Below, piece by piece: positions 14,174-55,508 of a stretch of DNA of 64,000 bases. The notes under the pieces were generated by a model, which saw only the letters and a program-made list of their open reading frames with translations, searched no databases and was not told the origin of the DNA. Source of the DNA: Halopiger xanaduensis SH-6 (lineage in GTDB: Archaea > Halobacteriota > Halobacteria > Halobacteriales > Natrialbaceae); contig NC_015666.1 of the NCBI RefSeq assembly GCF_000217715.1, forward strand, positions 2,492,270-2,556,269, read 5' to 3'. The stretch's first letter is position 1; each line of letters starts with the position of its first letter. A program made the translations under genes and the position numbers.

Positions 14174-14434
14174 TCAGCGACCGAGGCCGCCGCGCTCGTT
14201 GACCTCGAGAATGAACTTGACGTTGCGGACGATCTCCTCGGGCGTCGTCTCCTCGTCCTCGTCGTAGAGGTCGCTGGTCCGGTAGAGGATGTTCGCGAGC
14301 TGTTTGCTCTCGCTGGTCTCGCCGCGGACGTCGTCGGCGACCTTCCGGAGGAGTTCGACGCGCTCGGGGTCGGGGTCGAACTCCTCGGCGTCGTCCTCCG
14401 CCGGTTCGTCAGTAGTCGCGTCGCTCTCAGTCAT
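14174..14434 (-). CDS. Small acidic conserved protein downstream of Mrp
   Basis: This 86-aa, strongly acidic protein (first 25 residues mostly D/E/T/A) has a helical body VELLRKVADDVRGETSES, ANILYRTSDLY and PEEIVRNVKFILEVNERGGL. No domain is recognised. It overlaps the 3' end of the Mrp gene by 8 nt on the same strand, so it is co-translated with it and may act with it. Haloarchaeal Mrp genes often carry such a small downstream gene, but I can only infer partnership from position. Confidence 0.7.
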   Translation of the reverse strand: MTESDATTDEPAEDDAEEFDPDPERVELLRKVADDVRGETSESKQLANILYRTSDLYDEDEETTPEEIVRNVKFILEVNERGGLGR

Positions 14435-15500
14435 CGCTCCGAGACGCCGCTCGCTGCGATTGGGAGACGCTGCGCCGGTGGACGATCCCCGTGTTGTTCG
14501 CGACGTTCTCGGTGATCGTCCGGAACGACTCGCCGACCTCGCTGTCGTCGTCGAGGACGGTCGGTTTGCCGCTGTCGCCGCCCTCGCGGACGCTCGGATC
14601 CAGCGGGATCGAGCCGAGGAACGGCATGTCGTGTTCGTCGGCGAACTCCCGGCCGCCGCCGGAGCCGAAGATGTCGTGCTGGCTGCCGCAGTCGGGGCAG
14701 GCGAACGAGGACATGTTCTCGGCGATGCCGAGGACGACGGTGTCGTGCTGGGCGAACATCTCCAGTCCTTTGCGGGCGTCGTCCAGGGCGACGTCCTGGG
14801 GCGTCGTCACGATGACCGCGCCGGTGACGGGCATCGTCTGGAGCATGGTTAGTTGGGTGTCACCAGTTCCGGGGGGAAGGTCGACGACGAGGTAGTCGAG
14901 GTGGCCCCACTCGACGTCCTCCGTGAGTTGGGTGATGACCTTGTGGACCATTGGACCGCGCCAGATGACGGGGTCGTCTTCGCCCGTGAGGAAGGCCATG
15001 CTCATCAGCTTCACGCCGTACTTCTCGGGCGGCATCAGCGTCTCGTCCTCGGTGGCCATCGGCGGCTCGTCGGCGTCGACCATCCGCGGCACGTTCGGCC
15101 CGTAGACGTCGGCGTCGAACAGGCCGACCCGCGCGCCGAGTTGGGAGAGTCCCGCAGCGAGGTTGACGGCGACGGTCGATTTCCCGACGCCCCCCTTCCC
15201 GGAGGCGACGGCGATGACGTTCTTGACGCCCGGAAGCACCTGCTCGTCGCTCGAGAGGTCGTCTCGATCGGGAACGCTCGCGGAGAGGTCGGGCTCGAGT
15301 CCCGCTTCGATGAGCACCTCGCGGGCTTCGGCGGCGATGTCCGATTCGGTCGGCGAGTAGGGCGCGCCCAGCGCCAAGTCGACCGAGACCTCGTCGCCGT
15401 CGACGGCGATGTCGTTGACGAGTCCGAGCGAAACGATGTCGTCGCCGAGTTCCGGATCCTCGACCGTCCGGAGGCGGTCGCGAACGGCGTCTTCGTCCAT
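14427..15500 (-). CDS. Mrp/ApbC-type Fe-S cluster carrier ATPase
   Basis: This 357-aa protein has an N-terminal MIP18/DUF59 domain (about residues 1-85, MDEDAVRDRLRTVEDPELGD) followed by a deviant P-loop ATPase of the Mrp/NBP35 type. It has GKGGVGKS (Walker A, near 100), DADVYGPNVPRM and DLPPGTGDTQLT. The CxxC motif for a bridging Fe-S cluster is present in SSFACPDCG. It is expected to bind and deliver 4Fe-4S clusters in the cytosol. ATG at 15500 places the DUF59 domain at the very start, and the longer frame upstream is basic noise. Compare the CxxC-less paralogue at 54207-55508. Confidence 0.92.
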   Translation of the reverse strand: MDEDAVRDRLRTVEDPELGDDIVSLGLVNDIAVDGDEVSVDLALGAPYSPTESDIAAEAREVLIEAGLEPDLSASVPDRDDLSSDEQVLPGVKNVIAVASGKGGVGKSTVAVNLAAGLSQLGARVGLFDADVYGPNVPRMVDADEPPMATEDETLMPPEKYGVKLMSMAFLTGEDDPVIWRGPMVHKVITQLTEDVEWGHLDYLVVDLPPGTGDTQLTMLQTMPVTGAVIVTTPQDVALDDARKGLEMFAQHDTVVLGIAENMSSFACPDCGSQHDIFGSGGGREFADEHDMPFLGSIPLDPSVREGGDSGKPTVLDDDSEVGESFRTITENVANNTGIVHRRSVSQSQRAASRSDD

Positions 15501-15532
15501 AGAAGAGTGTACTTCCCGGCGTCGAAAAGGGT

Positions 15533-15650
15533 TGTGTTCCCACCTTTTTGCTGCGGGTTTTCGCTCGCGTCGCTCGCTCAAACCGCTTGCAAAAATCTGG
15601 ACCAAAAAAGCCGCTCGCTCCTGCCGTCGCTCGCGGGTGCATCGCTTGCG
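15533..15650. repeat. Probable dispersed haloarchaeal intergenic repeat
   Basis: The gap upstream of Mrp holds a distinctive GC-skewed stretch with cacctttttgctgcgggttt, clustered cgctcgcgtcgctcgctc words, and aaaaatctggaccaaaaaag, followed by more gctcgctcctgccgtcgctc. I recognise this word order as one that recurs between genes in many haloarchaeal chromosomes. Only one copy is in this window, so its repeat status rests on memory rather than on an internal match. It has no coding potential. Confidence 0.4.
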
Positions 15651-42569: not shown

Positions 42570-43409
42570 ATGTACGGCGTCGTCACCCGAAACGCCGAAG
42601 AAGTCCGGTGGCCGGAGTTCGACCGCGGATTCTACGAGGTCAAGGACGTGACCGGCCGGTCCGCCGAACCGATCGAGGACGGGATAAACATGGTCTCCTG
42701 TTTCGCCGACAACGCCGCCGCCGACGCCGATCCGTCGCTCGTCCCCGTCGACGACTTCGGCCGGCCGGCGACGCGCGATCGCCCGCAGTTCGACTGGGAC
42801 TTCGTCTGTCCGACCCGAACCGACTACCGAGAGGGCCTCCTCGAGGTCATCGACGACTGCGTCGCGGCCAGCGAGGACGTCCGACTCGACGACGTCGGCT
42901 TCCCGCGCGCCGAGTACTGTCACTGCGGCGTCTGCGAGCAAGCGTTCGCGGAGAGCGAGTACGACGACCGCCTCGAGTGGCGCGCGAACGTCGTCACCGA
43001 GTTCGTCGAGGAGGCGGTCGATCGCATCCCCGGCAAGACCTATCTGACGCTCTACCCGGATCCCTACCCCGGCCACCTCTACGAGCGGGCCGGCCTCGAC
43101 CTCGAGGCCCTCGAGGAGCTGGTCGACGAGTTCGTCGTTCCGCTGTACGACACCCAGTACGGGACGACCTACTGGCTCGAGACGATCGCGAAGGGCTTCG
43201 AGAGCGCGCTCGAGACGCCGTTCAATATCGAGTTGTACGCGGTAAACGTCGACGTCGACGATCTAATTCACGCCCTCGAGGTGGCCGAAGCGTACGGTGA
43301 CGGCGTCCTGTTCGGCTACGAGGCGTCGAACGCGCGGGCGGCGCTGCGGCGACGCCGTGCTGACGAGCGCGAGGGGAAGTCGTTCGGGGAGCCGAGTTCG
43401 GAGTCGTAA
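42570..43409 (+). CDS. Conserved hypothetical protein with two Cys pairs
   Basis: This 279-aa protein begins MYGVVTRNAEEVRWPEFDRG. VSCFADNAA, FDWDFVCPTRTDYREGLLEV, FPRAEYCHCGVCEQAFAES and TYLTLYPDPYPGHLYERAGLD follow. A CHCGVC motif may bind zinc or iron. The early DYREGLLEVIDDC...VRLDDVGFPRAEYC resembles (beta/alpha)8 proteins related to glycoside hydrolases, with acidic residues at strand ends. No family name can be given. It is transcribed with, or right after, the 37-aa gene. Confidence 0.7.
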   Translation: MYGVVTRNAEEVRWPEFDRGFYEVKDVTGRSAEPIEDGINMVSCFADNAAADADPSLVPVDDFGRPATRDRPQFDWDFVCPTRTDYREGLLEVIDDCVAASEDVRLDDVGFPRAEYCHCGVCEQAFAESEYDDRLEWRANVVTEFVEEAVDRIPGKTYLTLYPDPYPGHLYERAGLDLEALEELVDEFVVPLYDTQYGTTYWLETIAKGFESALETPFNIELYAVNVDVDDLIHALEVAEAYGDGVLFGYEASNARAALRRRRADEREGKSFGEPSSES

Positions 43410-43671
43410 GCCGTCTCGAGACCGCCAGTGGGAGCCGGCCGATGCTACACGGGGACGACGCCTCGAGCGAGCGGCGACGCGACGTCGGCGCCGGGAGCGA
43501 CGACCAAGCGCAGGGCGAGAGTAACGCACGAGAGGAGACGAGGACGACTCGGCTCGAGACGCGGATCGATTTGTCGCCGTTGGTTGAGAGTTTGGAGACT
43601 CCGGTGGCTGTCGGTTGATCGGCGGAAAAAGTCAGAAATGGCCTCAGAACGCGAACGGATCGGTGATCGGC

Positions 43672-44613
43672 TCAGCGAGTGGTCGTGTTGTCGTCGCCGA
43701 TGCGATCGTCGTCATCATCGTCGTCGTCACCCATGAGTCCGCTATCGTCGTTATCATCGCCGAGGAGGTCGCTGTCATCGTCATCGCTCATTAGGCCGTC
43801 GTCGTCGTTCCGTCGCCGGTCTTCGTCGCTCCGGCGACTCTCGTCGTCACCGATCAGGCTGTCGTCGTTGTCCCGTCCCTGCCTTTCATCACTCCGACGG
43901 CTCTCATCATCGCCGATCAGGCTATCGTCGTTGTCGTCCCCGATGAGCCCGTCGTTCTCGTTCCCTCTCCGCCCGTCGTCGCTTCGGCGGCTCTCATCGT
44001 CGCCGATCAGGCCGTCATCGCTGTCATCGTCATTGCCCATCAGACCATCGTCGTTATCGTCACCGAGGAGTCCGTCGTCGTCATTGTCGCTCATCAGTCC
44101 CTCATCGTCGTCGGAGATACCGGAATCGGAATCGGTACCGGTGCCGGTTCTGGTTCCGGTGTCCGTCCCCATATCGGTGCCCGTGTCCGTTCCAGTATCC
44201 GTGCCAGCTGTTCCGGCCGGTCCGGATTCGACGTCGCTGGACCCCGGGGACCCAGTCGTATTGGATTGGACATCGTCCGCGTCCGTGCCCGCCGTTCCGG
44301 TAGTGTCGGTTGTTCCGCTCGTTCCTGTTGCGCCCATCCCCGTCTCGGACCCGGTCTGACTTCTGGCCCCGTCGAGATCGCTCTCGAGGCGGATCTCGTC
44401 GTCGGTGACGCCGGCGACTGCTTCCTCCTGAAGCGGGTAGGCGTCTTCGTCGGCGTCGCCCCAGCCGAGTGTCGCCTTGATGGTGTCTGTAATCCCCGGG
44501 TCAGGTTCGACGTGTGCGGTACCGTGCTCAACCGCCGCGACGATCCCGACCTTGTCGCCGTTCGCGTTGACGACGTCCTTGCCGATGTCGTCGTCAGTAA
44601 ATTGTGGTGCCAT
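43672..44613 (-). CDS. PRC-barrel protein with Asp-rich tandem-repeat tail
   Basis: This 313-aa protein has an N-terminal PRC-barrel-like domain (about 1-75: FTDDDIGKDVVNANGDKVGIVAAV). A Thr/Gly/Ser-rich linker with (GTDT)n (about 80-170) and a tail of about 140 residues follow. The tail repeats LIGDDESRRSD three times in units of about 20 residues, interspersed with GLMSDDDD, LLGDDNDD and DDDDDDDD. The repeats are visible in the DNA as gtcgtcatc-type runs. It is extremely acidic. Such tails may bind cations or polymerise; function is unknown. No signal peptide is seen. The reading frame of the repeat may vary between strains. Confidence 0.75.
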   Translation of the reverse strand: MAPQFTDDDIGKDVVNANGDKVGIVAAVEHGTAHVEPDPGITDTIKATLGWGDADEDAYPLQEEAVAGVTDDEIRLESDLDGARSQTGSETGMGATGTSGTTDTTGTAGTDADDVQSNTTGSPGSSDVESGPAGTAGTDTGTDTGTDMGTDTGTRTGTGTDSDSGISDDDEGLMSDNDDDGLLGDDNDDGLMGNDDDSDDGLIGDDESRRSDDGRRGNENDGLIGDDNDDSLIGDDESRRSDERQGRDNDDSLIGDDESRRSDEDRRRNDDDGLMSDDDDSDLLGDDNDDSGLMGDDDDDDDDRIGDDNTTTR

Positions 44614-44780
44614 TGTAGTTTAATTACTGTTACAAACGCCCAAGTTGGTGGTGCTTGCGGTGGCTTGCGACCAATCTGAGAGGACGAATTCGGCTCGAGC
44701 GCAGCCCACTAGCAGAGCTGCGAGGCTGGGGATGCTGTATGGAAAAACCGAGGACGTGTGAACCGTTCGCCCGTCCATAT

Positions 44781-44815
44781 CGCGAGACTCATGCTCGCGC
44801 GGTTGGTCGGCGAGC
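44781..44815. other. Two overlapping alternative hairpins
   Basis: cgcgag/ctcgcg (44781-44786 with 44794-44799) and gctcgc/gcgagc (44793-44798 with 44810-44815) share bases, so an RNA could form only one at a time. They lie in the 268-nt gap between the PRC gene and the HTH-10 gene, which also has a cgagtgaacaaaaacatcga tail I have seen between genes in other haloarchaea. No gene is supported in the gap. Confidence 0.4.
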
Positions 44816-44881
44816 ACGAGTGAACAAAAACATCGAGGGGACGAGTTAGCTGTTCGAACCGCCGAACGCGGGCCGTCCCGT

Positions 44882-45550
44882 TCAGTCCGAGGGCATCGGC
44901 GGTGCGGTCGTCTCCTCCTCCGCGACGTTCAGCTCCGAGGTGACGAGCGCCCGGTAGGCGCGTCGGAGGCGCTCCGAGAGCGCCTGGTGGGAGATTCCCA
45001 GTTCGTCGGAGAGCTCCTGCATCGAGACCTCTCGGGGAATCTCGAAGTAGCCGTGATCGATCGCTGCAACGAGCGTTTCGTACTGGCGCGCGGTGAGACC
45101 ACACTGGGAGTGGGTCTCCTCGGCCATGTCGAACAGGCGGACGATCGTCGGCGTTACGTCGTTGTCGACCAGTCGATCGTAGAGCGTGCTGACCGACTCG
45201 CGGTCGACGACGCGGACGCTCAGCAGCCACGTGTCGTTAGAGGCCGAGGCGGACAGCACCGTCCCGCCCTCCTCGAGGACGACCGTGAACGGATCGACGG
45301 TGTCCGGATCGAACTCGATGTCGTAGAGCCAGCGATCGCCGTCGCTGCTGATCATCGTGTACTCCTCGATTTCGGTGGATTCCGACAGGGCGGCTTCGAC
45401 CTCGTCCTGGGATGCCCCCGAGAGCCAGAGCCCGTGCCCGCTCGAGGCGATTACTCGCTCCATCTCACAGTTCAGTGATGGAACGGACTCGAACAGCTCG
45501 CCCAATCCGGTTCCGTCGGCCGGAATCTCGATGTCTGCGATTGATGTCAT
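44882..45550 (-). CDS. Bacterio-opsin activator HTH-10 family regulator
   Basis: This 222-aa protein has an N-terminal BAT-type sensing region (about 1-150, LNCEMERVIASSGHGLWLSG, CGLTARQYETLV) and a C-terminal HTH_10 (DHGYFEIPREVSMQELSDEL, ISHQALSERLRRAYRAL). It follows wtpAB on the same strand at 113 nt and may regulate the molybdate/tungstate or Mo-enzyme genes; this is inferred from position only. Confidence 0.85.
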   Translation of the reverse strand: MTSIADIEIPADGTGLGELFESVPSLNCEMERVIASSGHGLWLSGASQDEVEAALSESTEIEEYTMISSDGDRWLYDIEFDPDTVDPFTVVLEEGGTVLSASASNDTWLLSVRVVDRESVSTLYDRLVDNDVTPTIVRLFDMAEETHSQCGLTARQYETLVAAIDHGYFEIPREVSMQELSDELGISHQALSERLRRAYRALVTSELNVAEEETTAPPMPSD

Positions 45551-45663
45551 GAACTCATACTCTGCTACAGCAGGGATCGCAATAACCCCACTTCCAAAGA
45601 GATTAGCAACGCCGATAGCGACTATCCAGATTTTTTATCGCTTCTTTCAGTCCCTGACGAGAG

Positions 45664-46497
45664 TCAATAATTCCGAGGCGTTCCGACGAGTGCGCGCACG
45701 GCGACGACGGCGAGCAGCGTCACCGCGAGCAAGGCGAGCGCGATCGGCACGATCGCCTCGAGTCCCTCCGAGATGTAGGCGACGCGGATCTGTGTCGGCA
45801 TCGTCCGCGGGTTGTACGCGACCATCATCGTCGCGCCGAACTCGCCGAGCGCCCGGACGAACGTCAGCACGATTCCGGCGGCGATCGCGTTCCGGGCCAG
45901 CGGCAGCGACACCGCGCGGATCGTCTCGAGCGGTCCGTATCCCATCGATCGAGCCGCCTCCTCGAGTCGCGGGTCGACGCCGTCGAAGCCGGCCTTCGCG
46001 GTGACGACGAGGTACGGCGCGGCGACGAACGTCTGGGCGAGGATCACGCCCGCGCGGCTGTCCGTCAAGGGGACACCCAGCGCGGCGGCCGCGGCGCCGA
46101 TCGGCGTGTAGCGGCCGACGACGGTCAACAGCAACACGCCGCCGACGATCGGCGGGACCACGAGCGGGATGACGACGGCGGCCTCGACGAGCCGCTTGCC
46201 GCGGAAGCTCGCCCGCGAGAGGACGTACGCGAGCGGCACGCCGAAGACGGTCGCGATCGCCGTCGAGACGGGCGCCGTGAGCAGCGAGTTTCGGATCGCC
46301 GTCCGAACGGCTGGGTCCGCGAACCGCTCCAACACGTCGATCGACCCGATTTGCAGAACGAAGACGACGAAGGGGACGAGGAAGTACGCGAGCAGGACTG
46401 CCCCGAGCAGCGCCGGGACTGCTAGCCCGCTCGAGACGCGGCCGTACTCGAGTCCGATTCCGAGTCGCGCCCCACCGTTTCGATCGCCGTCGATCAC
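45664..46497 (-). CDS. wtpB: Tungstate/molybdate ABC transporter permease
   Basis: This 277-aa BPD-type permease has five to six helices (LAVPALLGAVLLAYFLVPFV, VEAAVVIPLVVPPIVGGVLL, ILAQTFVAAPYLVVTAKAG) and the EAA loop LEEAARSMGYGPLETIRAVS that docks with the ATPase. It overlaps wtpA by 4 nt (ATGA). No WtpC/ModC ATPase gene follows, so an ATPase must come from elsewhere. The specificity (Mo, W) is inferred from wtpA and the adjacent Mo-enzyme genes. Confidence 0.88.
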   Translation of the reverse strand: MIDGDRNGGARLGIGLEYGRVSSGLAVPALLGAVLLAYFLVPFVVFVLQIGSIDVLERFADPAVRTAIRNSLLTAPVSTAIATVFGVPLAYVLSRASFRGKRLVEAAVVIPLVVPPIVGGVLLLTVVGRYTPIGAAAAALGVPLTDSRAGVILAQTFVAAPYLVVTAKAGFDGVDPRLEEAARSMGYGPLETIRAVSLPLARNAIAAGIVLTFVRALGEFGATMMVAYNPRTMPTQIRVAYISEGLEAIVPIALALLAVTLLAVVAVRALVGTPRNY

Positions 46498-47513
46498 GGC
46501 TCGAACACCTCCGCTTCCGACTCCGACCCCGCCTCGGCCGCGCTCACGGCTCGAGCGGTAGCGTTCTCGAGCACCTCCGGGACGTCCCCGTGAGCGCGCG
46601 GCAGCGAGTCGTCAACGCGCAGGCCCCGATCGGTGAGCAGCGACGGGTTCGACGCGAGAAAGTCGACGAACTCGCGGCCGGCCGCCTGCGCGTCGCCGGT
46701 GGTACACACCGTCGCGCCATAGACGACGGGCGAGCCTCGAGTCGTATAGCCGTCGTCCGTGGTGTAGCTCGCGTCGGCATACTGCGACGCGTAGTCCGGA
46801 TTGCCGAAGTTGTACGCGTCGGGGAGCGTGCGGTAGGGCAGGTCGCGTTCGACGGCCATATTCTTGTAGGCGACCGCGCAGGCCCGATTGCCGGCCTCGA
46901 GGCCGGCCAGCAGTTGCGCCTCGTCGGGTTCCCGGTAGACGCGCTCGAGCATCGACTCCCGGAACCCCTCGAGGCCGTGTTCCCGCGCGGCCAGTTCGAA
47001 CAGGAGGACGGCGCGGTAGCCGAGGGGATCCAGATCGGGGTCGCTGATCGCAATCTCGTCCGGCCCGGCGTCGGCGAACACCTCGTACCACGGCTCGCCG
47101 TCTGCCAGGCGAGCGCCGAGGGCCGTCTCCGATGCGTAGACAATCACGACTTCGTTGGCTGCGAAGGTGAGATCCCAGTCGGCGTAGTCGGGCCGGAGTC
47201 GGTCCCGAAGCAGTCCGATGTCGGCGCTGATCGCGACGTCCGGCCGTTTGGTTCCGTCGCGAACCATCCGAACGACCGCGTTCGAGCCGTGGTACTCGCC
47301 CTCGTAACCGATCCCCGTCTCGGAGCGAAACGCGGGGCCGACGCCGTTCTCGAGGACGCTCGCGAGGCTGCCGGCCGAGAGAACCCGGACGCGGTCGCCG
47401 TCGGCGAGACAGCCGGCCGTGCCGACGGCGCCCAGCGTCGTTCCGGCCAGCGTCGCGAGGAGAGCGCGACGGCTCCCGGTCGGCCTCCCGGCGGTGCCGT
47501 CGGCGCGTCGCAT
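46494..47513 (-). CDS. wtpA: Tungstate/molybdate ABC transporter substrate-binding lipoprotein
   Basis: This 339-aa extracytoplasmic protein has GSRRALLATLAGTTLGAVGT, then lipobox AGC (Cys at about 34), so Tat lipoprotein export fits. Binding-fold motifs are RVLSAGSLASVLENGVGPAF, YHGSNAVVRMVRDGTKRPDV, FAANEVVIVYA and DPDLDPLGYRAVLLFELA, the WtpA type with Ser/Glu/Asp oxoanion ligands. ATG at 47513 has a TATA box 24-31 nt upstream. It is the first gene of a wtpAB unit in the cluster. Confidence 0.88.
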   Translation of the reverse strand: MRRADGTAGRPTGSRRALLATLAGTTLGAVGTAGCLADGDRVRVLSAGSLASVLENGVGPAFRSETGIGYEGEYHGSNAVVRMVRDGTKRPDVAISADIGLLRDRLRPDYADWDLTFAANEVVIVYASETALGARLADGEPWYEVFADAGPDEIAISDPDLDPLGYRAVLLFELAAREHGLEGFRESMLERVYREPDEAQLLAGLEAGNRACAVAYKNMAVERDLPYRTLPDAYNFGNPDYASQYADASYTTDDGYTTRGSPVVYGATVCTTGDAQAAGREFVDFLASNPSLLTDRGLRVDDSLPRAHGDVPEVLENATARAVSAAEAGSESEAEVFEP

Positions 47514-47536
47514 ACGCGGTTATCGAATCCCGCACA

Positions 47537-47556
47537 CAATATAACTGATTTCAGTT
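47537..47556 (-). promoter_or_regulatory. wtpA promoter: TATA box abutting a 14-bp palindrome
   Basis: TTATATTG (47537-47544, minus strand) lies 24-31 nt before ATG 47513. Directly upstream, aactga-tt-tcagtt (47543-47556) is a perfect 6+6 palindrome around a 2-nt centre, touching the TATA/BRE zone. This is where a repressor would block TBP/TFB. Oxoanion-responsive control is plausible but unproven. Confidence 0.5.
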
Positions 47557-47659
47557 CCTATTTTGTGGGAACGTAAACTCATATAGTTTCTTCAGCAGCG
47601 ATACTCGAGCGAATTCGCCCTGCAGCCGCGGCGAAAAGAGAGACGGTTACGGCCGCCGG

Positions 47660-48220
47660 TCAGTCAGCCGGCCGCTCGAACTCGAGCGGGTCGACCGAGC
47701 GGATCGCTTCAGCGAGCGTCTCGAGGCCGTCGTCGTGGCGACCGATCACGGGGCCGCCGACGTCGGCCGGCGACCGATCCCCGACGAGAATCGTCGGCAG
47801 CGGCGACGCCGAAAAGCCCTCCACGAGGACGATGTCGTAGCCGCGGCGCTCGAGGCGCTCGAGAGTGCTCGCGAGCGCCCGCATTTCCCGGATTTCCGAC
47901 GGTTCACGGTCGGTTCCGGACCCGAGACCGAACGGGTCCGATCCGAGTTCGTCCGGCGGATCCCGTTTTCCTCGAGTCGTGATGTCGAAGGTCAGTTCGG
48001 GCGTGATCCCGACGACGGTCTCTGCCCCTGTGGTTCGATGGCGGTGCGTGTCCGCGCCCGGCGTGTCGATCTCGATGTCGTGATGGATCGATTTGACGGT
48101 CGCGACGCGGTCGTCCTCGGCTAGTCGGGGCACGAGTTCCTCGACGAGCGTCGTCTTGCCCGAATCGCTCGGGCCGGCGAGACAGACGGCCCGCAGCCGC
48201 GGCCTCGAGTCGGCGGTCAT
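47660..48220 (-). CDS. mobB: Molybdopterin-guanine dinucleotide biosynthesis protein MobB
   Basis: This 186-aa P-loop protein has AVCLAGPSDSGKTTLVEELV (Walker A GPSDSGKT), TVKSIHHDIEIDTPGADTHRH and DIVLVEGFSASPLPTILVG, matching MobB. It assists MobA in attaching GMP to molybdopterin. It starts at ATG 48220, and the longer frame above is Arg-rich shadow. It lies 64 nt after TorD, within the Mo-enzyme cluster. MobA is not in the window. Confidence 0.9.
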   Translation of the reverse strand: MTADSRPRLRAVCLAGPSDSGKTTLVEELVPRLAEDDRVATVKSIHHDIEIDTPGADTHRHRTTGAETVVGITPELTFDITTRGKRDPPDELGSDPFGLGSGTDREPSEIREMRALASTLERLERRGYDIVLVEGFSASPLPTILVGDRSPADVGGPVIGRHDDGLETLAEAIRSVDPLEFERPAD

Positions 48221-48284
48221 ACGAGCGGGGTTCGTGGAGCGGCGGTAAGACGCGTTCGGACGACCGCGGCCGCCGACGCCTCGC

Positions 48285-49127
48285 TCACCGCGGCCCGTCG
48301 CGATCGCCCATCGGCATCCGGTCGCTTCCGGGCGTCGGTCCGGGCGACGGGCGCTGCTGTCCCTGACCTCCCGCCGGCGACTGCGACGGGCCGCCGCCGC
48401 AGGTGCCACAGCGGAAATCGCCGTCCTGGTCGGTGAAGTCCTCGAGCGGCGACGGCGGCGTCTCGGGGAAGACGTCGGGCTCGACGCCGAACCGGTCGGC
48501 GTCGGCCTCGACCAGCGCCACCACGAGATCCGCGAGCGCCCGGTAGAACGGGTCGTCGGCGTCCTCGTGGACCGTCTCGCGGAACCGCGGGAGCCACCGT
48601 CCGAGGTGGTCCTCGAGGAAGTCCGCCTGGGCGTTCGTCACGATTTCAACGCCCTTCTCGTCGCCGGTCTCCGCGAGGTAGGCCGTCTGCAGGGCCAGGT
48701 GGGAGACGAACTCGAGTTCGACGCAGAGGTGGTCGACGCGCTCGCGGTTGCCCTCCTCGAGGTCGAGGTCGAAGGCGCCGTAGAAGCCCGCGATATCGGC
48801 GAGTTTGTCGGTGTTGGTCACGAGCGTGCCCGGGCCGTACTCGACCTCGTACTGCTGGATCTCGCCGCCCTGCTCGAAGCCGAACAGGGCTGCGTAGGTC
48901 GAATAGCAGTCCTCGATCGCGTCGGGGTCGTTCGGGCTCTCTGCGGCGACGGTCTCGGCGGCCTCGCGGAGGTCGTCGTCCCTCAGCGCCGCGACTGATT
49001 CGACGAGTTGCTCGTCGAACTCGTCGGACTCCATCGCCTCGCGGAGGTCGTCGGTCGGCCGGTCGAACGCCAGCGACGCGAGCTTGTACAGTCGCGCGCG
49101 GTGGACGTGGTGGTCTGGTCGGGTCAT
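48285..49127 (-). CDS. TorD/DmsD family Mo-enzyme maturation chaperone
   Basis: This 280-aa helical chaperone inserts cofactor and supervises Tat export of the catalytic subunit. Motifs include RLYKLASLAFDRPTDDLREA, YSTYAALFGFEQGGEIQQYE (conserved E-x-x-Y region), FVSHLALQTAYL, and ADFLEDHLGRWLPRF. A low-complexity Gly/Pro/Gln C-terminus follows a CGTCGGG pair, which is unusual for TorD and might bind a metal or disorder. It starts 27 nt after the Fe-S subunit gene. Confidence 0.87.
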   Translation of the reverse strand: MTRPDHHVHRARLYKLASLAFDRPTDDLREAMESDEFDEQLVESVAALRDDDLREAAETVAAESPNDPDAIEDCYSTYAALFGFEQGGEIQQYEVEYGPGTLVTNTDKLADIAGFYGAFDLDLEEGNRERVDHLCVELEFVSHLALQTAYLAETGDEKGVEIVTNAQADFLEDHLGRWLPRFRETVHEDADDPFYRALADLVVALVEADADRFGVEPDVFPETPPSPLEDFTDQDGDFRCGTCGGGPSQSPAGGQGQQRPSPGPTPGSDRMPMGDRDGPR

Positions 49128-49154: not shown

Positions 49155-50348
49155 TTACGTGATGTCCAGTCGGTACGCGTCGTGCTGGTCGTCGAAGCGA
49201 TCGCGCTCGTACCGGGGCTCCTCCATCGGAACGCGGGCGACCGTGTGGCCGTCCTTGTCGTAGCCGATGGCCTCCTCCTCGGTCACTTCGAACTCCTCGA
49301 TGCGCCACTCGGTCGAGCCCATCAGCTGGATCACGCCGCGGAGCTTGCGGTACTCCTCGTCGCCGCGGCGGGCCTTGCGGTAGGTCTCCTGGGCCTCCTC
49401 GACGCCCGGCCCGAACATCTGGTAGAGGTAGTCCGTCGGGACGTTGATCGGCGGGATGTAGTAGACGTTGGGCTCGAGGCCCAACTGCGGGTACAGCGGG
49501 AGCGCGACCTCGGCCTCGTGGACGAGGTAGTCGACGGGCGCGGAGGGGTCGGCCTGATCGGGCCGGTTGACCCAGCCGTGCATGCGGATCTTGCCCAGGC
49601 AGTTCTCGAAACACTGCGGGACGAGCCCCTGCTCGACCTTCGGGTAGCAGCCGACGCACTTCTGGGAGTTCATCTCGACGGGGTTGTAGATGGACTTCCC
49701 GTAGGGGCACGCGCGAACGCACTCCTGGAAGGACTGGCAGCTCTCCTCGTCGAGCAGGACGATGCCGTCCTCCTGGCGCTTGTAGATGGCCTGGACGGGA
49801 CAGCCGCCGGCGCAGGCGGCGAACGTGCAGTGGTTGCAGACCCGCGGGAGGTAGAAGAACCACGTCGGGTGGTGGTCCTCCTCGATGTGGGTGTCGGACT
49901 CGACGGCCTCGCCGGCCGGTTCGTCCTCGCCGAGGTTGGGCTGGGCCCAGTCCTCGTCCTCGGGGATGTAGCCCTCGATCCCCTCGCTGTGCATGGTGTC
50001 GGGGTCGTCGTCCATCGCCATCGACTCCCAGTCGAAGTCGCGGACCTCGAAGATCGTGTCGCCGTCGTAGACGCCGTCGGAGCCCCACTCCTGGACTCCG
50101 AGTCGGTCCAAGATCTCCTGGTCCCACCCGAGCGGGTAGGAGCCGTAGGGCTTGGTCTCGACGTTGTTCCAGAACATGTGCTCCTGGCCCTCGTTGTTGG
50201 TCCAGGTCGTCTTACACGACAGCGAGCACGTCTGGCACGCGATACACTTGTTCAGGTCGAACACTGCCCCCCACTGTCGCTCCGGACGCGCTTCCGGGTA
50301 GGGGTACTCCATCTCGCGGCCGATCTGCCAGTTGTAGACTTCTGCCAT
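49155..50348 (-). CDS. NarH/EbdB-like Fe-S electron-transfer subunit
   Basis: This 397-aa protein has four ferredoxin-type Cys groups: CIACQTCSLSC (C35, C38, C41, C45), CNHCTFAACAGGC, CQSFQECVRACPYG, and KCVGCYPKVEQGLVPQCFENC. In the third group the aromatic/Phe position where NarH-type subunits have Trp/Tyr suggests a 3Fe-4S cluster. It would carry electrons between the catalytic subunit and a heme or membrane partner. It lies 17 nt after the catalytic gene with GAGGTGACC (50353-50361). No signal peptide is present, so it would be exported together with the catalytic partner. Confidence 0.9.
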   Translation of the reverse strand: MAEVYNWQIGREMEYPYPEARPERQWGAVFDLNKCIACQTCSLSCKTTWTNNEGQEHMFWNNVETKPYGSYPLGWDQEILDRLGVQEWGSDGVYDGDTIFEVRDFDWESMAMDDDPDTMHSEGIEGYIPEDEDWAQPNLGEDEPAGEAVESDTHIEEDHHPTWFFYLPRVCNHCTFAACAGGCPVQAIYKRQEDGIVLLDEESCQSFQECVRACPYGKSIYNPVEMNSQKCVGCYPKVEQGLVPQCFENCLGKIRMHGWVNRPDQADPSAPVDYLVHEAEVALPLYPQLGLEPNVYYIPPINVPTDYLYQMFGPGVEEAQETYRKARRGDEEYRKLRGVIQLMGSTEWRIEEFEVTEEEAIGYDKDGHTVARVPMEEPRYERDRFDDQHDAYRLDIT

Positions 50349-50365: not shown

Positions 50366-53300
50366 TTAATCCGATTCGCTCGTGTAACCGCCCTTCAGGT
50401 ACTGTTCCATCCGGTCGTCTTCCTGCGTCGGCCGGACGCCCTCATCGACTGGTCGCCAGTTGCCGCCGGGCTCGCCGTCCTCGTTCACGCCGCCGTCTTC
50501 GGCCTTCTCGATCTTGACGAACGACTCCTTGGGCGCGCCGTTGGCGGCGTGGACGTCGGGCTCGAAGCCGACGTCCATGTTCTGCCCGAGCATGTCCTTG
50601 CGGGGCATCGAGTCGGTCAGCCACGTCCGGCGCAGCCACGTCGAGGTCATCGACTGGTGGCCGCCGCTGCGGTACATCGACACGTAGTTCGTGTCCTCGG
50701 ACTGGGCCTTGCCGTCGTCGCGCTCCTGCTGGGCCTCGTAGGACTTGTGGGACGTCTGGCTGACGTTCATCCAGCTGCGAGTGACCCCGCGCGGGAGGCT
50801 CGGCTGGAAGCGGACCCGCATCAGCGCGCGGGTGTACTCGGTCTCCTCGTCGTCGGGGTCGTAGCCCGGGAACGGCCGGTCGGACGGGTCGGCGTCGACC
50901 CACACGTAGTCGCCATCCTGTAAGTCCTCCTCGCGGGCGTCCTCTGGGTTCATCTCGACGTAGCCCTCGCCCACGAACGGCTTGCGCTGGTCGAAGGAGT
51001 CGCGCTCCGTCTTGCGACCCTGGTCGCCGAAGTTACTCCACCAGACCGCCATCTCCTCGAGGTCGGCGCCGAAGGTGTGGGTCCCGTGGCGGTACTTCGG
51101 CGTCATGTAGACGTAGTCGTAGCCCTCGTCGAGGTCGGTCAGCGGGTGGCTGGTATCGACCAGTTCCGACGGCGTCCGGACCTCGTTGCGGACCTGCCGA
51201 TCGTTGGTGTCGCGGGCCTTCTCCTCGCTGTCCCAGTCGCGGTCGTCGGGCGTCTCGGGCGCAACCACCGGACTGTCGCTGTCGTCGACGATGACGTTCG
51301 GCTCGTACGGCGTCGCGTCCATCGGCTCCCGATGGAGGGGAATGTGCTCGCCGGCCTCGGCGAACTCCTCCTCCTCGCGGAAGAACTCGAGCCGCCCGGT
51401 CTTCGTGTACCAGGGCTGGGAGTCCTGGGTCTGCTCGTTGCCGACGTGCTTGGGGTAGGTCCGGGTCATGATGATCGCAGGCGTCCCCTCGCGGGCGTCT
51501 TCCAGCAGGTCCTCGACGTCGTAGCCCTTGACGGCGTTGGAGTTGTCGAGGATGCGCTGGAGGTACGGTTTGGCCTGGTACTCCTCCTCGTCGATGAACG
51601 CCCAGTAGTCGGTAAACCGGTCGTCGCCGGTGAGTTCGGCGAGCTTCTCGGCGACGCCCTTGTAGTGTTGGGTGTCGTTTAGGGTGTTGTAGATCCGGTC
51701 GAGCTCCGTCTCCGGCATCGTCGTGATGAAGGGGTTCGTGACGGAGGCGGTGATGTCGTGGACGTGGTGTTCGGCCCACGAGTCCGCCGGGAAGACGATG
51801 TCGGAGTACTCGCAGGTCATCGACCACCACCACTCGTTGGTGAAGAAGGCCTCGATGTCGCCGGTGCGCAGGGCCTTCTCGATGATCTTGTAGGCGCCTT
51901 TGGCGTTGCCGAGGATGGAGTTCGAGCCGGACACCCAGATCGACTTCGTGGGCGTGTGCATGTGCGAGTCGCCCTGGAAGTACTCGCCGTCGACCTTCAG
52001 CGGCTTGTCGAGGTTGGTATAGAAGTGCGCCGAGTGGGCGTCCCAGCGCTTGTCGGTGCGAGCCTCCGCGTCGGGATCGAGTTCGGGATCGAACGGATCC
52101 TCGTTGGCGTACTGCCCGACGCCGTTGAAGTAGGCCATCCGGTAGTTCCCGGAGTAGGAGCCGACGTTCCCGGTCTGGTAGCCGACGTTGCGCGTCAGCG
52201 ACGCCAGCAGGAACGCGGCGCGGCCGTGCTGGTCGGCGTTCGCGTAGTGGTTCGGCCCCATCCCGGTTAGCAGCATCGTGCTCTGCTGGTTGTCCGCGAA
52301 GTCCTGAGCTAAGTTCTCGACGGCCTGCGGGTCCGTCCCCGTGACCTCGGCGGTCGACTCGAGGTCCCAGGTCTCGGTCAGGTGCTCCTTGATCAGGTCG
52401 AAGACCGTCCGGACTTCGACGGTGCTGCCGTCGGCGAGTTCGACCTCGAACTCGCCCTCGATCGTCGCGGGGACGTCGAAGTCGTCGCCGACGTCGTCGC
52501 GGGTGACCGACTCGAACTCGCCGCTCTCGTCGTTGCGGACGACGAAGTCGCCCCACTCGCGGCGGAGTTCCTCGGTGATGACCTGATCGTCGATGTCCGT
52601 CACGTCGACGCCGGGCCGGTCGGCGTCGTCGGCCACGGCCTCGGTCTTCTCGAGGTCGGCGGGTTCGTAGTCCGAGAAGACGTCGCTGGCGCGGAGGAGT
52701 TCGTTGTCGTCCATCCGGACCAGCAGCGGGAGGTCCGTGTGTTTGCGGACGTACTCCGTGTCGTAGAGCTCCTGCTCCATGATGACCCGCGCGGCGCCGA
52801 GGAACAGCGCCGAGTCGGTCGCCGGGCGGACCGTGATGAGCTCGTCGCACTTCGAGGCCGTGGCGTTGTAGTCGGTGAAGATGCCGGTGAGCTTCGACCC
52901 TTTGAGCTTGGCCTCGGTCAGCCAGTGACAGTCGGCCATCTTCGAGGTCAGGTAATTGATGCCGTCGAGCACGATGTGGTCCGCGTACTCGATGCTCGCG
53001 AGGTCGAAGTCGACCGTCTGCTGGCCGGTCACCATCGTGTGGCCCGGCGGCAGGTCGGTGTGGAACGAGTAGTTGTCGAGCCCCATTGCGCCCAGGGCCT
53101 CGTCCTCCGAGACGTCCCGGACGTAGTTGTCCAGCAGCGCCATCGAGTTGGCGTTGCGGTACTGGCCGAACAGCTTGATGACGCCGAGCAGCGGCATCCC
53201 GCCGCGGAACTTCATCGTCCGGACGCCGGCGCCCTGGGTCTCCTCGACGACGCGCTCGTCGTAGCCCTGCTCGAGCAGCGACTCCATCCCGCTCTCGCCG

Positions 53301-53932
53301 CTGTACTGCTGGGCGAGCTCGAGGAAGGTCTGAGCGGCGTACTCGTGGGCCTCCTCCTGGGAGACCTCGACGAAGTCGTCCTCGCCGCGCTGGGCGTACT
53401 CGGTGGGCATGGAGCCGTCGTCGTCGCGCGGGAAGCCGTCGTCGACCCACTGCTTGAACCCCTCGCGGATCATCGGGGCCTTGACGCGGCGTTCGTTGTA
53501 GAAGCGCTCGACCATCGCCAGGCCCTTGTTACAGACGCGGGGGTCCCAGCGCTGGGAGGACTGGTTGCCCTGCAGGTCCGTCGCCTCGCCGTAGTTCATC
53601 GACGGACCGAGGCGGGTGATCTGGCCGTTCTTGACGGTCGCCTCGAGGTAGCAGTTGTGGGTGTCGTTGGGCGTACACGTGAGCATGTAGGAGTCGTCGG
53701 GCTCCCAGATGTCCCGGTACTTCTGATCCCACTCCTCGTTTGGGTACTCCTCGAGGGGGTTCATCTCGACCTCGGGGCCGCCCTCGTCGTCGGCGGCTTC
53801 CTCGGGACTCAGCCGGCGGTAGCCGAGGAATCCGAGCCCGGACGCGCCGGCGAGTCCGGCGGCCGCCGCACCGAGCTCGCGGCGGGTCAGATTCAGTCCG
53901 CCGTCCTCGGCGTCGGCCTCCCCGTCACTCAT
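50366..53932 (-). CDS. Mo/W-bisPGD oxidoreductase catalytic subunit, Tat-exported (NarG/type II-like)
   Basis: This 1188-aa complex iron-sulfur molybdoenzyme has Tat motif LTRRELGAAAAGLAGASGLG (about 15-34). The N-terminal cluster site is C86-x7-C94 ... C134 (TCTPNDTHNC, RVCNKG), not the usual CxxxCxxxC or HxxxCxxxC. The likely Mo ligand Asp293 lies in HTDLPPGHTMVTGQQT, like type II enzymes (nitrate, selenate, chlorate reductases, ethylbenzene and DMS dehydrogenases). Bis-MGD contacts in LLTGMGPNHYANADQ are visible. A tail after about 1100 is divergent. ATG 53932 has GAGGTGG (53937-53943). The substrate is unknown. It is the first gene of the cluster. Confidence 0.87.
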   Translation of the reverse strand: MSDGEADAEDGGLNLTRRELGAAAAGLAGASGLGFLGYRRLSPEEAADDEGGPEVEMNPLEEYPNEEWDQKYRDIWEPDDSYMLTCTPNDTHNCYLEATVKNGQITRLGPSMNYGEATDLQGNQSSQRWDPRVCNKGLAMVERFYNERRVKAPMIREGFKQWVDDGFPRDDDGSMPTEYAQRGEDDFVEVSQEEAHEYAAQTFLELAQQYSGESGMESLLEQGYDERVVEETQGAGVRTMKFRGGMPLLGVIKLFGQYRNANSMALLDNYVRDVSEDEALGAMGLDNYSFHTDLPPGHTMVTGQQTVDFDLASIEYADHIVLDGINYLTSKMADCHWLTEAKLKGSKLTGIFTDYNATASKCDELITVRPATDSALFLGAARVIMEQELYDTEYVRKHTDLPLLVRMDDNELLRASDVFSDYEPADLEKTEAVADDADRPGVDVTDIDDQVITEELRREWGDFVVRNDESGEFESVTRDDVGDDFDVPATIEGEFEVELADGSTVEVRTVFDLIKEHLTETWDLESTAEVTGTDPQAVENLAQDFADNQQSTMLLTGMGPNHYANADQHGRAAFLLASLTRNVGYQTGNVGSYSGNYRMAYFNGVGQYANEDPFDPELDPDAEARTDKRWDAHSAHFYTNLDKPLKVDGEYFQGDSHMHTPTKSIWVSGSNSILGNAKGAYKIIEKALRTGDIEAFFTNEWWWSMTCEYSDIVFPADSWAEHHVHDITASVTNPFITTMPETELDRIYNTLNDTQHYKGVAEKLAELTGDDRFTDYWAFIDEEEYQAKPYLQRILDNSNAVKGYDVEDLLEDAREGTPAIIMTRTYPKHVGNEQTQDSQPWYTKTGRLEFFREEEEFAEAGEHIPLHREPMDATPYEPNVIVDDSDSPVVAPETPDDRDWDSEEKARDTNDRQVRNEVRTPSELVDTSHPLTDLDEGYDYVYMTPKYRHGTHTFGADLEEMAVWWSNFGDQGRKTERDSFDQRKPFVGEGYVEMNPEDAREEDLQDGDYVWVDADPSDRPFPGYDPDDEETEYTRALMRVRFQPSLPRGVTRSWMNVSQTSHKSYEAQQERDDGKAQSEDTNYVSMYRSGGHQSMTSTWLRRTWLTDSMPRKDMLGQNMDVGFEPDVHAANGAPKESFVKIEKAEDGGVNEDGEPGGNWRPVDEGVRPTQEDDRMEQYLKGGYTSESD

Positions 53933-54206: not shown

Positions 54207-55508
54207 TCAGGTCGCCGGTTCCGACACCGCCGCCGGCGACGACGGCTCGAGTTCGACCAACCAGCCGTTGTAGCCGAGGTCCTCCACGTCGGTTCGCTCG
54301 AGCGAGCGGCCGTCCCGGGCAAGGCTCTCGTCAACGACGGAGACGAGGTCGTCGGGTTCGCCCCGCATCACGACCGACACCGGCCCCTCGGTCACGCCGA
54401 GCTCGGTGACGACCTGCCGGTGACAGGTTTCCGGCGGCAGCCCGCGCAGGTCGACCGCGTCCTCGGGGACCGCCGGCCCGGCCTCGTGCTCGAGGAACGA
54501 CTCGACGGTCGCCCGCAGATCGGCGATCGCCCGCTCGCCCTCGCTTTCGGGGTCGGCGAACGACGCTTCCGTCGGCTCGCGCAGCGCCGGATCGAAGGGC
54601 ACGGGCTCGAGGTCGGCGTAGGCCGCTTCGACCACGTCGTCGGCGATCGTCTCGGGATCGGCGTCGTCGAACGGCCCGGCGGCGTCCGCGACCGAGCCGA
54701 CCACGTTGGGCACGACGCCGACCGTCGGCACGTCGTTGGCCGTGTACAGCGCCGCGGTCCGCTGGGTCGCCCGCACGCCCTCGTCGGTCGGCGTGCTCAC
54801 GAGCAGGCCGCCGTCCAGCGGCGCCTGCTGGACGATCGTGTAGACCGCGTCGCCGATCCCCGGCGGCAGGTCCACGAGCAGCACGTCCCGGTCGTCCCAG
54901 GCGGCGTCGCCAAGCAGGTCCTTGACGACGTCGTGGACCATCGCGCCGCGCCAGGCGACCGGTCCGTCCTCGGCGATCAACTCGATGCTGACGACCTGAA
55001 TGCCGTCGACCTCGACCGGCATCGGCTTCCCCGACGGCGAGGACTGGACCGGCCCCTCTGCCTCGAGCAGATCCGGCGCGTCGGGGGCGTAAACGTTCGC
55101 GTCGAAGACGCCGACGTCCAGCCCGGCCTCGGAGAGCGCCCGCGCGAGCGAGACGGTGACGGTCGTCTTGCCGACGCCGCCCTTCGCGCTGCCGACGGCG
55201 ATGATGGAATCGACGCCGGAGACGGGAAGCCCGGTCTCGGGAGCGTCCGAACCGGCGGCCTCCACGCGGACGTGGACCACGCCGTCGGTCGCCAGTCCGG
55301 CGCCGCGCAGTTGGTCGGTGAGGCGGTCCGCCAGCACGCGGGAGACCGGCTCGAAGTCGACCGTGAAGGTGACGATGCCGTCCTCGACGGCGACGTCCTC
55401 GATCAGTTGCTCGCTGACCGGGTCGCCGCCCATGATCTGGACCTCCCGGACGCGGTCGATGACCGCCCGTCGGATTTCGTCGTCCGTCCGCGGTGTCTCG
55501 TCGGTCAT
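54207..55508 (-). CDS. Divergent Mrp-like ATPase, CxxC-less, with C-terminal extension
   Basis: This 433-aa protein has a DUF59-like N-terminus (about 5-85), a deviant P-loop KGGVGKTT (109-116), DANVYAPDAPDLL, DLPPGIGDAVYTIV and a C-terminal domain of about 75 residues (about 358-433) with DLRGLPPETCHRQVVTEL, resembling a SirA/DUF2249-type fold. In the Mrp at 14427-15500 the corresponding loop has CPDC; here it is VVPNVVGSVADAAGP, without Cys. It may thus not hold a bridged Fe-S cluster, or may use the Cys in the extension. It lies directly upstream of the Mo-enzyme cluster, so a maturation role is possible. Confidence 0.82.
   Translation of the reverse strand: MTDETPRTDDEIRRAVIDRVREVQIMGGDPVSEQLIEDVAVEDGIVTFTVDFEPVSRVLADRLTDQLRGAGLATDGVVHVRVEAAGSDAPETGLPVSGVDSIIAVGSAKGGVGKTTVTVSLARALSEAGLDVGVFDANVYAPDAPDLLEAEGPVQSSPSGKPMPVEVDGIQVVSIELIAEDGPVAWRGAMVHDVVKDLLGDAAWDDRDVLLVDLPPGIGDAVYTIVQQAPLDGGLLVSTPTDEGVRATQRTAALYTANDVPTVGVVPNVVGSVADAAGPFDDADPETIADDVVEAAYADLEPVPFDPALREPTEASFADPESEGERAIADLRATVESFLEHEAGPAVPEDAVDLRGLPPETCHRQVVTELGVTEGPVSVVMRGEPDDLVSVVDESLARDGRSLERTDVEDLGYNGWLVELEPSSPAAVSEPAT

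Follow-up and report, generated by a model that had tools for sequence, protein, structure and literature searches.

A CxxC-less Mrp-family ATPase with a DUF2249-like domain beside an NXR-like molybdoenzyme in haloarchaea: a candidate enzyme-specific maturation factor

The window, a stretch of 64,000 nucleotides from Halopiger xanaduensis SH-6 (contig NC_015666.1), encodes an Mrp-family ATPase next to a molybdopterin enzyme. The relevant features are the following, with a canonical Mrp of the same window listed for comparison.

54207..55508, minus strand: CxxC-less Mrp-family ATPase with a C-terminal DUF2249-like domain, 433 amino acids (ORF, Pfam, orthologues, tree)
55263..55433, minus strand: N-terminal DUF59 / FeS_assembly_P-like domain, residues 26-82 (sub-threshold Pfam match)
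54561..55214, minus strand: ParA/NUBPL P-loop NTPase domain, residues 99-316 (PF10609, 174 bits; Foldseek match to ApbC, 8zkc)
55164..55190, minus strand: deviant Walker A motif SAKGGVGKT, residues 107-115 (alignments)
54666..54707, minus strand: site of the CxxC in canonical Mrp, where this protein reads NVVGSVADAAGPFD (alignment, model)
54243..54467, minus strand: probable DUF2249-like domain, C-terminal, residues 348-422, beta-alpha-beta-alpha-beta-beta (profiles, tail model)
54423..54425, minus strand: codon of the sole cysteine, C362, not conserved among orthologues
50366..53932, minus strand: NXR-like molybdopterin alpha subunit with twin-arginine motif (Kuenenia NxrA 7b04_B, E 8.6e-223)
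49155..50348, minus strand: NXR-like beta (Fe-S) subunit (Kuenenia NxrB 7b04_A, E 2.9e-98)
48285..49127, minus strand: TorD/NarJ-type chaperone (DMSO_red_II_cha, Pfam)
47660..48409, minus strand: MobB, a long frame whose true start is probably internal
46494..47513, minus strand: WtpA-like tungstate/molybdate-binding protein
45664..46497, minus strand: WtpB-like ABC permease
14427..15605, minus strand: canonical Mrp with CPDC, true start probably the internal Met at 15500

A longer frame reaching 55613 is an upstream extension of the Mrp ORF, and the orthologues begin at the same Met as the 433 amino acid ORF. The P-loop domain of the Mrp/NBP35 family is present, with PF10609 matching residues 99-316 far above its cut-off (174 versus 27.1 bits). 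K109, G110, G111, G113 and K114 of the Walker A motif, which follows the pattern KGGxGK[ST], are invariant in alignments A1 and A4. With a dN/dS of 0.10-0.29 against five relatives, the gene is under purifying selection. The initial annotation had counted two Mrp proteins in the window. Both were found, but the genome has three full-length Mrp-type genes, the third lying outside the window (G000:C3:2605909-2606631).

It had also stated that the Mrp at 14427 keeps CPDC while the second one lacks a CxxC, and the alignment bears this out: the canonical protein (14427-15605) reads NMSSFACPDCGS at the site where the other has NVVGSVADAAG. CxxC is absent from all 28 close orthologues and from the proteins of loci L101 and L121, so the objection that most orthologues might carry the motif does not apply. 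An AlphaFold2 model of the single protein (27 sequences) has a pLDDT of 80.4 and a pTM of 0.70, with low confidence limited to the ends and to the loop where the CxxC has been lost, next to which lies an acidic loop (residues 271-296). Searching with this model, Foldseek found ApbC first (8zkc, E 2.7e-19), then HypB of T. kodakarensis and Cfd1. HypB (3vx3) also has no CxxC in an alignment with the canonical Mrp as query.

The single cysteine noted earlier in DLRGLPPETC is present as residue 362 and is the only one in the protein, but it is kept in 15 of the 28 orthologues and missing in the other 13. Seven orthologues are free of cysteine, and some proteins of the window type carry one to three scattered ones. 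Being so poorly conserved, Cys362 is not a functional signature, and no role as a sulfur carrier or cysteine ligand can rest on it. We therefore rejected a sulfur-carrier reading based on this residue; the conserved carrier cysteine of TusA/SirA proteins is not found here.

Kuenenia NxrA is the best PDB match of the neighbouring alpha subunit and covers its full length, with perchlorate reductase and NarG far weaker. Alpha and beta are closest to NxrA and NxrB among the solved structures; the enzyme is nitrite-oxidoreductase (NXR)-like. Their nearest relatives outside the haloarchaea in the genome scan come from Acidobacteriota, Deltaproteobacteria and Planctomycetota MAGs, at 48-51% identity. 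Detection of nxrAB in Halobacteria is reported in the available portion of PMC12806544.

By gene context, the Mrp proteins that share the fused C-terminal domain fall into four classes. Class A is the window type, with no CxxC and an NXR-like enzyme. Class B1 has CxCC and an NXR-like enzyme at about 65% identity. In class B2, most proteins have CxC and the alpha subunit has roughly 1050 amino acids, matching NxrA (428 bits) better than perchlorate reductase (263). Class B3 has CxxC and accompanies the classic haloarchaeal NarGH, whose alpha subunit has perchlorate reductase as its best match. The alpha subunits of the classes also differ in their first Fe-S ligand motif, with PNDTHNC in classes A and B1 (CTPNDTHNC in the window), CHPNCTQSC in B2 and HSVNCTGSC in B3.

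Both accessory domains are easier to recognise in the cysteine-bearing relatives. DUF59 (PF01883) scores 19.5 bits on the window protein, below the cut-off of 23.5; it is above the cut-off in L042, L057 and L067, which have the CxxC, and reaches 36-40 bits in B2 and B3 relatives. The window tail searched alone has no Pfam match, hence none to DUF2249 (PF10006), and the protein of L077 reaches 14.6 bits against a cut-off of 29.5. B2 and B3 relatives match PF10006 at 42-62 bits, and a profile of class A tails aligns to the CxxC-bearing relatives in hhalign with 97.7% probability (E 2.4e-12). Profile comparison thus answers the initial question of SirA/TusA or DUF2249 in favour of the latter, and the extra domain is, on sequence grounds, probably a diverged DUF2249. 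We base this assignment on the profiles because structure-only fold matches of the tail are weak. Modelled alone, the tail has a pLDDT of 83.9 and the order beta-alpha-beta-alpha-beta-beta; Foldseek returned no PDB match at E ≤ 0.001, and the weak matches include SirA-like 3hz7 (E 0.13) and TsuB (E 0.024-0.15), with Smr/Alba-type folds ranking higher. TusA/SirA-type sulfur carriers such as PA1006 (PMC3568144) have a similar order of elements; unlike these, the window tail has no conserved cysteine.

In a tree of 75 Mrp rows, the 28 CxxC-less ones form one clade (SH-aLRT 99; quick method, no bootstrap), sister to B1. The tree excludes L114 and fragments below 330 amino acids. The borderline matches L068 and L069 (genomes G113 and G110), rejected as generic Mrps and not the fused form, served as outgroup. 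The initial annotation had the motif lost and the domain gained; the order is the reverse, since the fused domain is common to CxxC, CxCC and CxC relatives beside other Nar/Nxr-type enzymes and is thus older than the loss. A single loss of CxxC after the tail fusion suffices and is the history we infer. Halorubrum trapanicum, of another family, has a CxxC-less, cysteine-free Mrp beside the same alpha type (L101, identical to L128), and there are genomes in which a CxxC-less copy and a CxCC-bearing sister each adjoin a separate, similar enzyme.

The CxxC-less Mrp tracks the beta subunit and not alpha: the betas at these loci group in a single starred clade of 28 rows (27 CxxC-less ones plus L087, where the Mrp lies on another contig than beta), whereas the alphas form no single clade. 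Seven A loci (L074, L075, L076, L081, L083, L088 and L093) have B1-like alphas, and in L099, a locus without an Mrp, the alpha is A-like and the beta B1-like. Alpha subunits thus look exchanged between the two NXR-like cluster types at these seven loci and L099, with beta and Mrp staying together. We considered three causes for the CxxC change and rejected each. It did not follow a change of alpha, as the seven loci with alphas grouping with B1 demonstrate. The FS0 ligand set of alpha does not decide the CxxC state, A and B1 sharing PNDTHNC-type motifs. Finally, the beta ligand columns are complete, and the Fe-S cysteine columns are equal at CxxC-less and CxxC loci except for position 231 (Cys in 27 of 27 CxxC-less and 15 of 30 CxxC rows), so no lost ligand explains it.

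Close orthologues of the window Mrp (496-914 bits) are found in 28 of 125 genomes of the window's family, with a wide score gap to a second Mrp set at about 36-44% identity. All 28 genomes have the alpha subunit, in 27 of them within 3 kb; in the exception, G103, Mrp and alpha are on different contigs. The flanks examined cover 25 of the 27 other genomes with a close orthologue (all except G024 and G025). The suggested co-occurrence with the adjacent oxidoreductase is therefore seen in every genome of the family that carries the orthologue, and occurrence without it, which would have spoken against the idea, does not apply. A close alpha is present in 32 genomes, and the other four (G064, G075, G080 and G081) have a CxCC Mrp as neighbour.

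At class level, a profile of the fused protein was run on 391 haloarchaeal genomes, where fused proteins score at least 329 bits and generic Mrps at most 310; alpha subunits were taken at E ≤ 1e-140. The fused Mrp-DUF2249 was detected in 124 genomes and a Nar/Nxr-type alpha in 134: 121 have both, three the Mrp only, 13 alpha only and 254 neither (Fisher p 2e-81, relatedness ignored). At least 129 of the 147 fused genes have one of the 150 listed alpha matches within 12 kb. In G343 the fused Mrp and alpha lie at opposite ends of a 454-kb contig and would be adjacent if it is circular. Of the 31 haloarchaeal loci in the named scan (L117-L146, L179), 26 carry the fused Mrp within the examined stretch. 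Canonical Mrp is nearly universal in the 391 genomes and not linked to the enzyme locus. Since 121 genomes have both partners, the fused Mrp-DUF2249 is an accessory that accompanies Nar/Nxr-type enzymes generally in haloarchaea. Enzymes of this class can do without it, as genus g50 (six genomes) has a Nar-type alpha without fused Mrp and, among 49 bacterial loci whose alpha belongs to the same clade (some of them short stretches), none has an Mrp nearby at E ≤ 1e-5. Without an Mrp, the bacterial NXR-like loci could not serve as further witnesses. In Halovenus carboxidivorans (G213, L098-L100) there are two NXR-like clusters without an adjacent Mrp, and one CxCC Mrp about 115 kb from one of them.

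The initial annotation had proposed specialised maturation of the Fe-S/Mo enzyme in place of general Fe-S carriage. Its dedicated link stands for the CxxC-less form, adjacent to the enzyme in 27 of 28 genomes, but the fused architecture as such is general to Nar/Nxr-type clusters, and the 13 of 134 alpha genomes without it, like the 49 bacterial loci, speak against necessity. We infer a maturation role and give about even chances to a dedicated, ATP-driven maturation factor for the NXR-like molybdoenzyme that holds no cluster itself. Such a protein would dimerise and cycle ATP as Mrp proteins do, and could use its DUF59 and DUF2249 domains to dock on the apo form of beta, on the TorD-type chaperone or on both. 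ATP hydrolysis would then drive cofactor loading or hand-over, with no bridging [4Fe-4S] cluster on the Mrp itself. Somewhat more tentatively, we propose that haloarchaea have derived from the DUF59-Mrp-DUF2249 accessory of their Nar/Nxr-type enzymes a cysteine-independent Mrp ATPase that matures the NXR-like enzyme via its Fe-S subunit and carries no cluster.

The closest functional analogue may be HypB of T. kodakarensis (3vx3, 5aun-5auq), likewise an archaeal Mrp-family ATPase without CxxC, and dedicated to the maturation of one metalloenzyme, as is proposed here. The window protein would act like this HypB, whose ATPase is stimulated by its partner HypA, and unlike an Fe-S carrier. HypB serves nickel insertion into hydrogenase together with HypA, whereas the window Mrp has alpha, beta and TorD as neighbours. 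We know of no DUF59 or DUF2249 domain in Mrp-type HypB, and its loss of CxxC was presumably independent of the window branch. According to the accessible sections of PMC7055735, this HypB is an Mrp/MinD ATPase that lacks a nickel site and that HypA stimulates threefold.

Among CxxC-bearing proteins, the ApbC/Mrp/NBP35/Cfd1 carriers share fold and Walker motifs with the window Mrp but have the CxxC, which the excerpt of PMC6345978 gives as the bridging-cluster site of the family. HCF101 (DUF59-NTPase-DUF971) is likewise an Mrp derivative of three domains, the C-terminal one being extra, and serves dedicated targets, according to the parts of PMC7980591 at hand; it differs in keeping CxxC and in its tail, the window Mrp having no Pfam match to DUF971. 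The same domain set beside a Nar-type enzyme is found in E6P09_17415, a P-loop NTPase with DUF2249 in the nar operon of Haloferax mediterranei, which is up-regulated in denitrification and has a shared promoter motif (PMC11218638, in the portion available). It accompanies NarGH and, judging by that description, would be of class B3 with CxxC, in contrast to the NXR-like enzyme and missing CxxC of the window; the B3 arrangement thus seems to correspond to this nar operon. The domain combination is therefore already in print. In the openly licensed PMC literature searched we recognised no paper describing the CxxC-less form, and to that extent its NXR-linked branch counts as a new variant.

Nbp35 and Cfd1 function as a pair. 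By analogy, the window Mrp might form a heterodimer with a canonical CxxC Mrp, in which it would hold no cluster itself but aid Fe-S transfer and lend target specificity. The kept fold and Walker motifs, the two other full-length Mrp genes of the genome (one with CPDC in the window) and the CxCC, CxC or CxxC of sister relatives beside similar enzymes agree with this, but the acidic replacement loop is variable and modelled at low confidence, and the nearly universal canonical Mrp shows no linkage to the enzyme locus; we consider such pairing unlikely.

We give still less weight to a sensor or regulator, in which DUF2249 would sense nitrate, nitrite or the redox state and the MinD-like ATPase would relay the signal. 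The DUF2249 proteins DrpA and DrpB are proposed nitrate sensors in Thermus (PMC6282519, as excerpted), and DUF2249 genes rise in denitrifying Hfx mediterranei, the fused one with a log2FC of 3.60, though in the same account, as far as available, the DrpA histidines are kept only in another DUF2249 protein, E6P09_00795 (PMC11218638). Moreover, Pfam found no DNA-binding domain in the window Mrp, a separate HTH-like gene lies at 44882-45550 (assigned by eye), and a physical partner would better explain the linkage with beta. An ordinary Fe-S carrier with its cluster on other residues, or a decaying paralogue, is very improbable: the scattered cysteines of some A proteins and the weak DUF59 match of this branch would allow it, but seven of 28 orthologues have no cysteine whatever, dN/dS is low (0.10-0.29) and the enzyme linkage is kept across genera.

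The role of ATP hydrolysis in Mrp/NBP35 proteins is described as unclear in the excerpted text of PMC6345978. ATPase and cluster-carrying functions are separated naturally in a branch whose ATPase motifs are intact and whose cluster site is gone, and the genomes with a CxxC-less copy and a CxCC sister beside similar enzymes offer a ready-made comparison. If our preferred maturation role is true, this would add to Mrp-type HypB a second archaeal example of an Fe-S carrier that became an ATP-driven, enzyme-specific assembly motor. Research on haloarchaeal denitrification gains a concrete maturation candidate.

The wider neighbourhood at 42570-48409 comprises MobB, WtpAB, the HTH-like gene, a PRC-like gene and a gene at 42570. 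Comparing loci L041, L042, L045, L047-L052 and L055, we found this one neighbourhood around an A-type cluster in some genomes and around a B2-type cluster at 10 of the 14 B2 loci; whole enzyme cassettes look as if they replace each other at one chromosomal site. In the product of 43672-44613, a start which we take to be PRC-barrel-like is followed by an acidic, highly repetitive C-terminal tail rich in Asp and Gly.
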